A stretch of 58,288 bases of DNA from positions 1 through 58,288 of the forward strand of contig CALAMQ010000008.1 of the NCBI GenBank assembly GCA_937925815.1, written 5' to 3'. A program made the position numbers and the translations under genes. The number at the start of each line of letters is the position of its first letter. The stretch's first letter is position 1. The notes beneath the pieces were generated by a model. The model was not told where the DNA came from. It searched no databases and was given only the letters and a program-made list of their open reading frames with translations. Positions 1 to 3,504 of this stretch are shown here, one piece after another. Source of the DNA: an uncultured Granulosicoccaceae bacterium. GTDB taxonomy: Bacteria; Pseudomonadota; Gammaproteobacteria; CALCKW01.

Positions 1-901
1 AGAGCAAGGCCAGTGTGAACTCGACGCCAAACGCTACGGCGACCTTCCGCGCTGGCTCGCGGCGCTTGAGCAGCTGCCGAACGTGTCATCGCGCCGCGTC
101 GACCTCGGCCGCGCCGCGCCGAGAGTTGAATTTGATACTAATGCGGATGGCAACGCGCAGATCCACGATAGCCTCAGTGCACTGCACCCTTGGCGCAAAG
201 GCCCCTTTCAAATCAACGATACCTTGGTCGACGCTGAGTGGCGCTCGGACCAAAAATGGGCTCGCATCGAAAGCAAACTCAGTCCACTTGCCGGCCGTCG
301 TGTACTCGACGTCGGCTGCGGCAACGGCTACTTCTGCTTCAGATTAGTCGGCGCAGGTGCAGCATTGGCGCTAGGCATCGATCCCTCGCCCTTGTTCAAC
401 GTGCAGTTCGCAACGCTCAAACGCCTGTTTGGCGACCTGCCAGCGCACCTGTTGCCGCTCGGTGACACCGCCCTACACGACTGCCCAGCGGTGTTCGACA
501 CCGCATTGTCGATGGGCGTGCTCTACCACCGGAAGTCGCCGTTTGAGCATTTGTCACTGCTCTACAACAGCGTCCGTCCCAGCGGCGAGTTGTTGCTCGA
601 GACCCTGGTGGTCGAGGGCGATGTCAACACGGTATTGGTGCCCGCGGGCCGCTACGCGCGTATGCGCAACGTCTGGTTTTTACCCAGCACGCTGGCGATG
701 GCGCACTGGCTCACGCGCGCCGGTTTCACCGACGTGCAGTGTGTGGATGAGTGCATCACCCTGCCCTCAGAACAACGCAGTACCCAGTGGATGCGATTCG
801 AATCCCACGAACACGCGCTCGATCCCAGCGACCCTTCCCGTACAATTGAGGGCCTGCCCGCACCCCGGCGCGCCGCCTTTGTCGCCACTCGACCCGCCTG
901 A
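1..901 (+). CDS. cmoB: CmoB, tRNA U34 carboxymethyltransferase (5' end outside the window)
   Basis: The reading frame is open from base 2, so the gene starts upstream; 299 residues are visible of a family usually about 320 long. CmoB transfers the carboxymethyl group of carboxy-SAM to 5-hydroxyuridine 34 of tRNA, making cmo5U. The visible N-terminus has the family's GDLPRW segment, followed by the HPWRKGPF block and the Rossmann SAM motif LDVGCGNGYF. The MGVLYHRKSP block and the C-terminal RTIEGLPAPRRA ending are also typical. CmoA, its usual partner, would be expected upstream but is not visible. An unknown gene follows after 26 nt, and then mnmD, another wobble-U34 enzyme. Confidence 0.93.
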   Translation, partial: EQGQCELDAKRYGDLPRWLAALEQLPNVSSRRVDLGRAAPRVEFDTNADGNAQIHDSLSALHPWRKGPFQINDTLVDAEWRSDQKWARIESKLSPLAGRRVLDVGCGNGYFCFRLVGAGAALALGIDPSPLFNVQFATLKRLFGDLPAHLLPLGDTALHDCPAVFDTALSMGVLYHRKSPFEHLSLLYNSVRPSGELLLETLVVEGDVNTVLVPAGRYARMRNVWFLPSTLAMAHWLTRAGFTDVQCVDECITLPSEQRSTQWMRFESHEHALDPSDPSRTIEGLPAPRRAAFVATRPA

Positions 902-927
902 ACGCCACAGAAAAACACAGTGATACA

Positions 928-1887
928 ATGTTGCAGCACAACACAGCTCAGTTTGGCATGACATCACCCACCCCAGCAGACGGTGACATTCGCACCGAAA
1001 ACGGCACTCGGCGCATCTTCATAGACGGTTATTGGATTCGCCATTACGAGCCGCCAGACGAGACACCGTCGAACCACCGCAAGCTGATCATCAGCTTGAC
1101 GCGTCGGGCTTTTCACCACACCGAAGCCGGTATCAATACCCCCGGGCACAATCTCGACATCGCGCGTGAAGCGCACGAGAAAGAAACCGACCCAGACCGC
1201 AAACGCGTCAACGCCGCAATGCTCGCCGGCGCCTTGTTCAACCGTGCAACAGACATCTTTACAAGTGTCGTCGACTTGGATCGACGCGGTGTCACCCTCT
1301 CTCGTGAAGACGGTTTGATGCGGGAATGCAGCGCTTGCTTTCTCGAGGCGATGGAGCTGGGTAAGCAAGTCCGGCACTACAGCGGTGAGGAGGGCATCGA
1401 CGAGTTGTGGGGGGAGCCGTGCAAGGCATACACCATGTCGATTGCCGCCTTCTACACCCAGCGCTATCTCAAAATTGCGCAAACCATGCGCAGCATTGAT
1501 CGGGTCACAACTGCAATGCACACCGCATTCACTGACAACGCGCAGTTTAGAGAGCTCACACCCGTTCTAGAAGCCTTCTCAAAAGCAGCCCAAGCACACA
1601 CCGAAACCAGCAAGGGTGATTTGGCGTTTTTCTCTATCTGGCCACGCTTTGTCGCGGCGAGCGAGCAACTCGAGCGGGTCGAGCCGCCGCACACCGATGC
1701 GTCCTGGCCCGAGGTCAAGCCGCACTACCACTTCTGCCTTAAATTGATTCGCGATGGGCGGAATCTGATCAGCTACATGGCCGGTGCGCGCGTGCCGATG
1801 CCTGTGAGCTCACGCAATTACTTGATGACACTCGACCGGTTCAGCACGGAGAGCGCTCCCATCCTCAAGGCCGCCCGCCCTGGCTGA
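928..1887 (+). CDS. Uncharacterised 319-residue protein between cmoB and mnmD
   Basis: I do not recognise the family. The protein appears soluble, with no signal peptide or membrane segment, and looks largely helical. Its N-terminus (about 20-60) contains an aromatic stretch, IDGYWIRHYEPP. A charged helix carrying ETDPDRKRV follows near residue 90, and several His, Cys and Trp residues are scattered through the middle (for example SACFLEAME and GIDELWGEPC). No nucleotide-binding or zinc motif is evident. The start is ATG 928; an in-frame ATG at 958 is an alternative, and neither has a strong ribosome-binding site. It starts 26 nt after cmoB and ends 4 nt before the mnmD start, so the three genes look like one operon. 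A link to wobble-uridine modification is inference from position only. Confidence 0.8.
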   Translation: MLQHNTAQFGMTSPTPADGDIRTENGTRRIFIDGYWIRHYEPPDETPSNHRKLIISLTRRAFHHTEAGINTPGHNLDIAREAHEKETDPDRKRVNAAMLAGALFNRATDIFTSVVDLDRRGVTLSREDGLMRECSACFLEAMELGKQVRHYSGEEGIDELWGEPCKAYTMSIAAFYTQRYLKIAQTMRSIDRVTTAMHTAFTDNAQFRELTPVLEAFSKAAQAHTETSKGDLAFFSIWPRFVAASEQLERVEPPHTDASWPEVKPHYHFCLKLIRDGRNLISYMAGARVPMPVSSRNYLMTLDRFSTESAPILKAARPG

Positions 1888-1891
1888 CCGC

Positions 1892-2563
1892 GTGCTGACC
1901 ACAGCCGACGGCAGCAACACGCTCAAGCGCGGTGATCAGGAGAGTTTTCATTCGCAGCACGGGGCTGTGGCCGAAGCCAATCACGTGTTTATCCAAGCCA
2001 GTGGACTTGCACATTGTTTGGATCAACACCGTCCAACCCGAATTCTAGAAGTCGGCTTTGGCAGCGGTCTCAATTTTTTACTCAGCGCTGACCTTGCCAT
2101 GGCACAACGCGGTGCCTTGCACTACGTTGGCTTGGAATGCGAGTTGGTGACCGCTGAGACTTTTAGAGCCCTAGCGCACGCCCAGTGGCTTGTGCACCCC
2201 TCAATCGCGCAGGCGCTGGAGCAGCACCTGTCGGTCTCAACCACACCAAATCCGCGTCCGTCGTTGCACCACAGTGGCGTCGTGCTGGACATAGTGCTCG
2301 GTGATGCAGCGTCCGCGCCCTGGCCTGAGAGACAATTTGAAATTGTGTTTCACGATGCTTTCAGTCCGGCAACATCACCCACGCTGTGGACTGACAGCTT
2401 CTTAAAACAGCTCATGTCCGCACTCGTCCCGGGCGGCGTACTTGTGACCTATTGCGCCAAAGGTGAGGTGCGTCGAGCCTTCACGGCCGCGGGTTTCGCC
2501 GTTGACCGGCTGCCCGGTCCGCCGCGAAAACGCGAGATGCTGCGTGTGCACGCAGCAGCCTAA
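1892..2563 (+). CDS. mnmD: MnmD-like tRNA (mnm5s2U34) methyltransferase, stand-alone
   Basis: This 223-residue SAM-dependent methyltransferase matches the N-terminal domain of MnmC (DUF752). That domain methylates 5-aminomethyl-2-thiouridine at tRNA position 34. Motifs include the opening LKRGDQESFHS, the SAM loop LEVGFGSGLNFLL at 52-64, and the catalytic DAFSP block at 155-159. The TYCAKGEVRRA block and the C-terminal PGPPRKREML complete the family pattern. The FAD-dependent oxidase domain that is fused to it in E. coli MnmC is absent. The start is GTG 1892, 4 nt after the previous stop. It probably lies in an operon with cmoB and the unknown gene before it. Confidence 0.88.
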   Translation: MLTTADGSNTLKRGDQESFHSQHGAVAEANHVFIQASGLAHCLDQHRPTRILEVGFGSGLNFLLSADLAMAQRGALHYVGLECELVTAETFRALAHAQWLVHPSIAQALEQHLSVSTTPNPRPSLHHSGVVLDIVLGDAASAPWPERQFEIVFHDAFSPATSPTLWTDSFLKQLMSALVPGGVLVTYCAKGEVRRAFTAAGFAVDRLPGPPRKREMLRVHAAA

Positions 2564-2892
2564 ACCACCGTGTGCACGCCACCGGCCCGCGCCAGCACTG
2601 CACCGCCGTGCGCGCACGTCCCTTCTCGGCCACTCATCGCTTGAAAAAGCAAAATAGAAAATGTGGTACCCGGTTGCTAAGCATCCGTCTAGCGGTGCCG
2701 ATACCACCTGCATGCAAGGTGTTTCGGTGGCCGGTATCTCGCCGCCGACGGACATCAAAATGGATTGATAGAAACTTTGCTGCTGTGCAGACGGAATTGC
2801 GCATGATTGCCCCCTTTCAAGCAGAAACGGGTGTATGAACTGATCGCCGATTCAAAGGCGGCACAGCGGGCTCGTTGAGCCGCAGAGAGACC
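2564..2892 (+). other. 329-bp non-coding stretch with competing inverted repeats
   Basis: No convincing gene lies here. GTGGTA at 2663-2668 is complementary to TACCAC at 2702-2707. Overlapping that right arm, GATACC at 2700-2705 is complementary to GGTATC at 2733-2738. The two pairings use the same bases and exclude each other, as in attenuators and riboswitches. A small hairpin (CACCT 2705-2709 with AGGTG 2717-2721) is a third option. GGCTC/GAGCC at 2869-2881 forms a hairpin just before the phosphatase ribosome-binding site. There is no clear T-run terminator and I recognise no known riboswitch class. Function is unproven. Confidence 0.4.
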
Positions 2893-3504
2893 ATGATTGC
2901 ACACGCGAGAACCCTTTTCCTGATCCGGCACGGACCAACAGAATGGAATGCCGGGCACCGGATCCAGGGTCACACCGATATCCCATTGAGCGCGGCAGGC
3001 CGCGGCGTCGTAGCCAACCGCACACTGTCCGACGCACACCGTCAGGCACGTTGGTTTTGCAGCCCTCTGAGCCGCGCACGGGAAACAGCGACGTTGATGG
3101 GCCTAAACGCTGACATCGAATCTGCGCTCATAGAAATGTGCTTCGGCGAATGGGAGGGGTGCAGCAAATTCGACAATGCTGTTGGGCCTGCTCTGTCATC
3201 GCGCGGATGGGCTGGCCAACCGCCAGGTGGCGAGAGCCGAGAAGAAGCCTTGCAGCGCATTCTCGCTTGGCTAGCGGTGACACCGCCGCAGGGCGATCTA
3301 GGCGCCGTCGTTCACGGCGGTCTCATCAAGACATTGTATGCACACGCAACCAATTGGGATCTGCGAGGCGCGCCAAAACACGAATTGAACTGGGAGGCTG
3401 TACACGCCTTCAAACTGGATCGATACGGTCGGGTGATTGGCGGCACATACGCCTGCGAACAGATAGGTGACGAGCGCGCTTGGCAGTTTCCAAAGGCCGC
3501 GTGA
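2893..3504 (+). CDS. Histidine phosphatase (phosphoglycerate mutase-like/CobC-like)
   Basis: This 203-residue member of the branch-1 histidine phosphatase superfamily has the phospho-acceptor motif LIRHGPTEWN (catalytic His13). The supporting Arg in SPLSRARETA (Arg61), the acid in FGEWEG (Glu86) and the second His in VVHGGL (His141) are also present. The family hydrolyses small phosphoesters, such as alpha-ribazole phosphate or sugar phosphates, and the substrate cannot be read from sequence. I chose ATG 2893, preceded by a purine-rich GCAGAGAGA, over an in-frame TTG at 2875. The gene stands alone, convergent with the HD-domain gene, and is preceded by 329 bp with potential RNA structure. Confidence 0.88.
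   Translation: MIAHARTLFLIRHGPTEWNAGHRIQGHTDIPLSAAGRGVVANRTLSDAHRQARWFCSPLSRARETATLMGLNADIESALIEMCFGEWEGCSKFDNAVGPALSSRGWAGQPPGGESREEALQRILAWLAVTPPQGDLGAVVHGGLIKTLYAHATNWDLRGAPKHELNWEAVHAFKLDRYGRVIGGTYACEQIGDERAWQFPKAA

Follow-up and report, generated by a model that had tools for sequence, protein, structure and literature searches.

X, a constrained and mostly helical protein family encoded between cmoB and mnmD in a gammaproteobacterial lineage

A gene packed tightly between two tRNA-modification genes raises the question of whether it shares their function or merely their transcript. The window (the whole stretch of DNA analysed, 58,288 nucleotides) is contig C8 from its first base, in a genome of 183 contigs, and near its start encodes a protein, here called X, between cmoB and mnmD. 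A first-pass annotation had described X as a 319-residue protein of no recognised family, whose tight packing suggests co-expression with its neighbours, and as a candidate for an undescribed factor in tRNA modification or translation. The frame is as it described, 26 nt after the cmoB stop codon and 4 nt before the mnmD start, and both neighbours are matched by profiles. The features of the locus are as follows.

2..901, + strand: cmoB (TIGR00452, E 2e-115), with its 5' end missing at the contig start
928..1887, + strand: X, undescribed protein family, 319 aa as annotated, ATG to TGA
958..960, + strand: Met11, the likelier start codon of X, judged from the starts of relatives and a pLDDT of 55
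1117..1146, + strand: conserved loop A of X, residues 64-73, with H64, E66, G68, I69 and G73 invariant in 82 sequences
1369..1419, + strand: conserved loop B of X together with the first part of helix 5, residues 148-164
1892..2563, + strand: mnmD, a separately encoded MnmC2 methyltransferase (NF033855, E 9.4e-53)

The X gene and its constraint

The cmoB gene is truncated because the window opens at the start of a contig. X itself probably starts at 958, which would shorten the protein to 309 aa and widen the gap to cmoB to 56 nt, because residues 1-10 are poorly modelled (pLDDT 55 in the AlphaFold2 model of the window protein) and several relatives, such as that of L005, begin with a start codon that corresponds to residue 11 or lies beyond it; longer open frames are seen in other relatives. 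Consensus scans of positions 600-3000 found neither terminator-like nor promoter-like sites, and the lack of terminators argues weakly for a single transcript, since many such sites escape scans of this kind. Beyond mnmD, a frame at 2875-3504 encodes the motif LIRHGPTEWN, which we take to be typical of the histidine phosphatase superfamily, and frames with a very similar motif also lie 3' of mnmD in L003 and L004.

All four genomes sampled from the window's order encode X, the other three at 81, 78 and 58% identity, and the frame is therefore not due to chance and the gene is real. In the comparison with L003, X has a dN/dS of 0.130/1.76, cmoB one of 0.245/1.91 and mnmD one of 0.419/2.53 (the last over 175 codons only), with dS near saturation. 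X is under stronger constraint than both of its neighbours and has evolved more slowly than either.

A family outlined by its distribution, invariant residues and predicted structure

Scanning a genome collection with a four-sequence alignment as the query confirmed 97 relatives of X, of which the best 80 were kept; because the scan was built on two short peptide patterns and only these best 80 were kept, the taxonomic spread that it shows is a lower bound. The organism names among them include Granulosicoccaceae, Sedimenticola, Arenicellaceae, Thauera, Azoarcus and Rhodocyclaceae, together with the Chromatiaceae Thiocystis, Thiobaca and Halochromatium. Two metagenome bins, L033 and L038, are labelled Klebsiella pneumoniae and Erythrobacter, respectively, and these labels look wrong; the X of L033 groups with gammaproteobacteria and that of L038 with Granulosicoccaceae. 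Among sampled genomes of the class X is present in 37 of 369, none of the reported matches being weaker than E 1.8e-70, and 35 of these 37 have a single match, the exceptions being G350 with two full copies and G269 with two fragments at contig ends. In a sample of the phylum X was found in 1 of 398 genomes, the window's own, and in none of the 397 others. No relatives were confirmed in viral contigs and no matches were found in plasmids or phages, and we accordingly rejected the reading of X as a mobile or phage gene.

Profile libraries gave no significant match for 82 members of the family in Pfam (lowest E 0.018), NCBIfam (lowest E 0.0095, to adenylate kinase, in six members) or PADLOC (lowest E 0.005, in three members), nor for four members in PHROGs (lowest E 0.093), and the weak matches that do appear are spread over unrelated families. 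X thus belongs to no recognised family, as had been proposed, and matches no family with an unrelated role; on the PADLOC result we also rejected a defence gene. A PDB-sequence profile match at E 8.2e-6 to 7rdr_A, 'Circular tendon repeat protein', is probably a chance resemblance between helices and was set aside; it covers 51 positions, no stretch of which passes alone, and the nature of 7rdr_A is presumed from its name. The 82 members have a median pI of 5.8 and a median charge of about -5, compared with 6.7 and -1.3 for the window protein. No known kind can be assigned to the protein, and we claim no categorically new system from missing matches. What the searches do reveal is that the profile libraries searched miss a family in which 36 positions are invariant and which, in this lineage, is under stronger constraint than the adjoining tRNA enzymes.

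The 36 invariant columns in the alignment of 82 sequences include 14 that are Arg, Lys, His, Asp or Glu. Ten invariant residues lie in loop B and the beginning of helix 5 (V148, H150, G153, E155, G156, D158, E159, W161, G162 and P164). Among the segments measured, the most conserved are the loop 64-72, helix 5 at 157-169 and the turn 288-291, with mean identities of 0.89, 0.90 and 0.95, respectively; the loop 146-156 taken whole has a mean identity of 0.75.

Structure prediction with AlphaFold2 gave confident, mostly helical models (pLDDT about 91) of both the window protein (pLDDT 91.5, pTM 0.87) and a Thiobaca member (pLDDT 91.2, pTM 0.85), each with three short strands followed by ten helices. 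The block 151-160, which lies within the conserved segment from H150 to P164, has a pLDDT of 68, the lowest in the window model apart from the N-terminus, and the equivalent block of the Thiobaca model has a pLDDT of 73, with only the C-terminal end lower. Such low confidence in the models would be consistent with a loop that becomes ordered upon ligand binding. Neither model has a Foldseek match in the PDB at E 1e-3 or better, and the window model has none at that threshold in BFVD. The best VIA-align matches are 7p5j_A for the window protein (Z 8.0, rmsd 4.0, 106 residues) and 3i9y for the Thiobaca protein (Z 8.4, rmsd 14.4, 174 residues), Z values of about 8 being at a level that the tool calls common among helical bundles. 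The terpenoid (prenyl diphosphate) synthase 3lmd aligns with both models (Z 7.0, rmsd 3.5, 86 residues for the window protein; Z 6.8, rmsd 3.3, 83 residues for the second), and these scores are level with those of rhodopsins and other bundles. The missing clear structural match is no proof of a new fold.

The neighbourhood of X in this and other lineages

This genome is not alone in having the order cmoB-X-mnmD, which was seen in eight X-bearing genomes out of 37, spread over three families, as well as in Granulosicoccaceae records, and in none of the other 29 X-bearing genomes; in one of the eight, G147, an AI-2E transporter family gene lies between X and mnmD. Of the 80 collection loci kept (the best of 97), 17 have mnmD no more than 300 nt 3' of X in the same orientation, and 13 have a cmoB upstream that is likewise oriented with X, at a distance of 4.3 kb in L031. 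Four records are short, L037 and L053 ending too early past X to judge mnmD, and L036 and L057 having less than 500 nt upstream. At L038, L049 and L061, mnmD is kept beside X with no cmoB match in the 3.3-10 kb of upstream sequence that these records contain, and X is therefore linked more tightly to mnmD than to cmoB. Neighbouring frames come from a crude ORF caller, and the counts of loci and of genomes are not independent, as the two sets overlap (L006 and L082 with G002:C7 and G003:C18).

On a tree of X, the number of changes needed to account for each neighbour label is three for mnmD, one for the Ser/Thr kinase, two for mnmA and ten for recC with the oxygenase described below. On this tree the members linked to mnmD belong to two separate clades. 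One contains the window, L003, L004 and L082; the other takes in the rows of Granulosicoccaceae type, 16 of 17, the exception being L037, which ends about 200 nt past X. In the reading that we favour, X was captured between cmoB and mnmD once or twice in this lineage and the Granulosicoccaceae, the branches between the two clades being too modestly supported to decide which. The co-expression proposed from the tight packing is credible in this lineage, and X is probably co-transcribed with mnmD both here and in the Granulosicoccaceae.

The separately encoded MnmD has an expected functional partner in MnmC1 (TIGR03197), the FAD-dependent half of MnmC. MnmC is split in the genomes with the cmoB-X-mnmD order, MnmC2 being a short frame of 231-291 aa in seven of the eight (584 aa in G147) that adjoins or stands near X. 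MnmC1 is encoded elsewhere, above the cut-off, in five of them (G001, G003, G147, G259 and G354) and scores below it in G002 and also in G000 and G062, where the matches are weaker and partial. The presence of an unlinked MnmC1 in these five genomes led us to reject X as a replacement for it. The nine X-less genomes with MnmC2 above the cut-off have long frames of 545-682 aa, as expected of fused MnmC. At L047:5266-6135 and G354:C123:8797-9579 the mnmD match falls in two separated pieces (within one 291-aa frame in G354), which suggests an insertion in the middle of the protein.

In other lineages the same-strand 3' neighbour of X varies by clade, and includes the oxygenase, a kinase with a cyclic-nucleotide-binding domain, gcvT, cysB and others in addition to mnmD; one representative of each type was tested against profiles. 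A second recurrent arrangement has recC divergent, then X, then often an oxygenase (L007-L026 and others, for example L016:3533-11646). A member of the recC cluster lies divergently upstream of X in 28 of the 82 aligned members, 17 of which also have a 2OG-Fe(II) oxygenase of the TIGR02466/PF13759 type, often about 41 nt 3' of X, and at L016, the locus tested, recB adjoins recC. X as a dedicated partner of this oxygenase was rejected, as TIGR02466 matches above the cut-off occur in 7 of 37 X-bearing and 2 of 29 X-less genomes, a count that may miss some since even the oxygenase beside X in L016, with a score of 62.1, falls just short of the 62.5 cut-off. A kinase cluster lies 3' of X at five Sedimenticola loci, and at L064:10935-12239 the gene 3' of X encodes a Ser/Thr protein kinase with a C-terminal cyclic-nucleotide-binding domain. 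In a clade of three, gcvT (profile-tested in L029) and further glycine-cleavage-type genes follow X, of which gcvH and gcvP are presumed from size and order. In single loci or small groups the gene 3' of X on its strand is for a CysB-type regulator, for a wax ester synthase or for a rimO-like protein, the last presumed from a UPF0004, radical SAM and TRAM_2 domain pairing.

The function of X

One rival reading is that in this lineage X assists U34 modification, for instance as a helper or regulator of MnmD or as a coupler of the separate MnmC halves. This reading draws support from the loci with mnmD directly 3' of X, including L031, L038, L049 and L061, where mnmD stays although cmoB is distant or not seen, and from the short MnmC2 frames and separate MnmC1 genes of the cmoB-X-mnmD group. 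Its difficulties begin with co-occurrence. The 37 X-bearing genomes were compared with 29 X-less genomes of other families, part of the 332 X-less genomes in the sample, and MnmC2/MnmD is above the cut-off in 9 of 37 and 9 of 29, respectively, leaving 28 of the X-bearing genomes without it; MnmC1 is above the cut-off in 6 of 37 and 6 of 29. Outside the cmoB-X-mnmD group only one of 29 X-bearing genomes (G139) has MnmC2 above the cut-off, and a repeat search at lax settings, run on two genomes that lack MnmC2, gave no real match. CmoB is commoner in X-bearing genomes (23 of 37, compared with 9 of 29; Fisher p 0.015, uncorrected for kinship), with eight of the 23 belonging to the cmoB-X-mnmD group, yet it has no match at E 1e-30 in the other 14. 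Among the 29 X-bearing genomes outside that group, 15 have cmoB, and on the contig of X in G121 only. Some genomes are incomplete (79-86% for G002, G212 and G343), and lone absences are no proof, but together these counts weaken the case for X as a dedicated partner of MnmD or CmoB. X members of other lineages moreover have the same invariant residues, and X is more conserved than mnmD and slightly acidic. An accessory U34 role is therefore improbable in our estimate, and a dedicated one is not supported.

We give about the same low weight to X as a general factor of translation or RNA modification that is not bound to one modification. Genes of this category do recur near X, with a member of the mnmA cluster 3' of X on the opposite strand within 4 kb at seven Zoogloeaceae-type loci (tested in L060), tgt 3' of X on the opposite strand in L074, a rimO-like gene for a radical SAM protein in L072, and, in L116, an oppositely directed cmoB at a distance of 1.4 kb, with small frames between. 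The mnmA, tgt and L116 cmoB genes are, however, convergent with X on the opposite strand and so are not operon partners, the category was picked after the data were seen, and in most lineages the neighbours of X are unrelated to it. Slightly less credible still is a non-catalytic adaptor or signalling protein, such as a target of the adjoining Ser/Thr kinases. The Sedimenticola kinase cluster and the L064 kinase with its cyclic-nucleotide domain would fit such a protein, as would the gene that converges on X in L027, for a PP2C-type phosphatase that scores under the curated cut-off, but a kinase is the immediate neighbour in one clade only, and the invariant residues differ widely in chemistry (H, E, D, R, W and C) and cluster in a few segments, a pattern that looks catalytic.

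The reading we favour, with more confidence than doubt, is that X is an undescribed, constrained, soluble and mostly alpha-helical family, probably of enzymes or ligand-binding proteins, whose function is independent of U34 modification. A family of about 300-320 residues with a function of its own would ride in a tRNA-modification operon in this lineage and travel with unrelated neighbours elsewhere. Because the invariant residues cross lineages and X occurs where neither MnmD nor CmoB is detected, its core activity likely depends on neither. Most speculatively, and from conservation and secondary structure alone, the loops at 64-73 (H-x-E) and 148-164 (H...E..DE.WGEP) may form a pocket with the invariant Arg and Lys residues (candidates being R60, R80, R93, R106, R179, K182 and R288), which could accept an anionic, perhaps metal-bound, small substrate. 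Two observations count against this favoured reading: the linkage to mnmD across three families, even without cmoB, also fits a functional link, which two separate captures beside mnmD would favour, and cmoB is more frequent in genomes with X than in those without.

The proposal of an undescribed factor in tRNA modification or translation is thus partly supported, since the gene order is conserved, and is weakened by the X-bearing genomes in which MnmC2/MnmD or CmoB goes undetected; the step from co-expression to tRNA modification is not supported, as the neighbours of X differ in other lineages, and a part for X in tRNA modification is a possibility, not a likelihood. It is a long shot that X founds a new-fold enzyme family that serves translation or RNA modification in some of the gammaproteobacteria. 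If it did, the positions near cmoB, mnmD, mnmA, tgt and the rimO-like gene in separate lineages would reflect function, and X in genomes without MnmD would represent a distinct, undescribed modification or quality-control step. The locus is also a caution that tight packing within one lineage does not confer the function of its neighbours on a gene.

Compared with known systems, X in this lineage shares strand and neighbourhood with CmoB and MnmC2 (MnmD), and co-expression with them is probable, but unlike them it has no methyltransferase or other recognised domain, and it has no similarity to MnmC1. It resembles families of the DUF kind in being conserved, mostly single-copy, patchily distributed and without an assay; unlike those, it has no model in the copies of Pfam-A and NCBIfam searched, despite its 36 invariant positions, and it is now outlined by its distribution and those residues.
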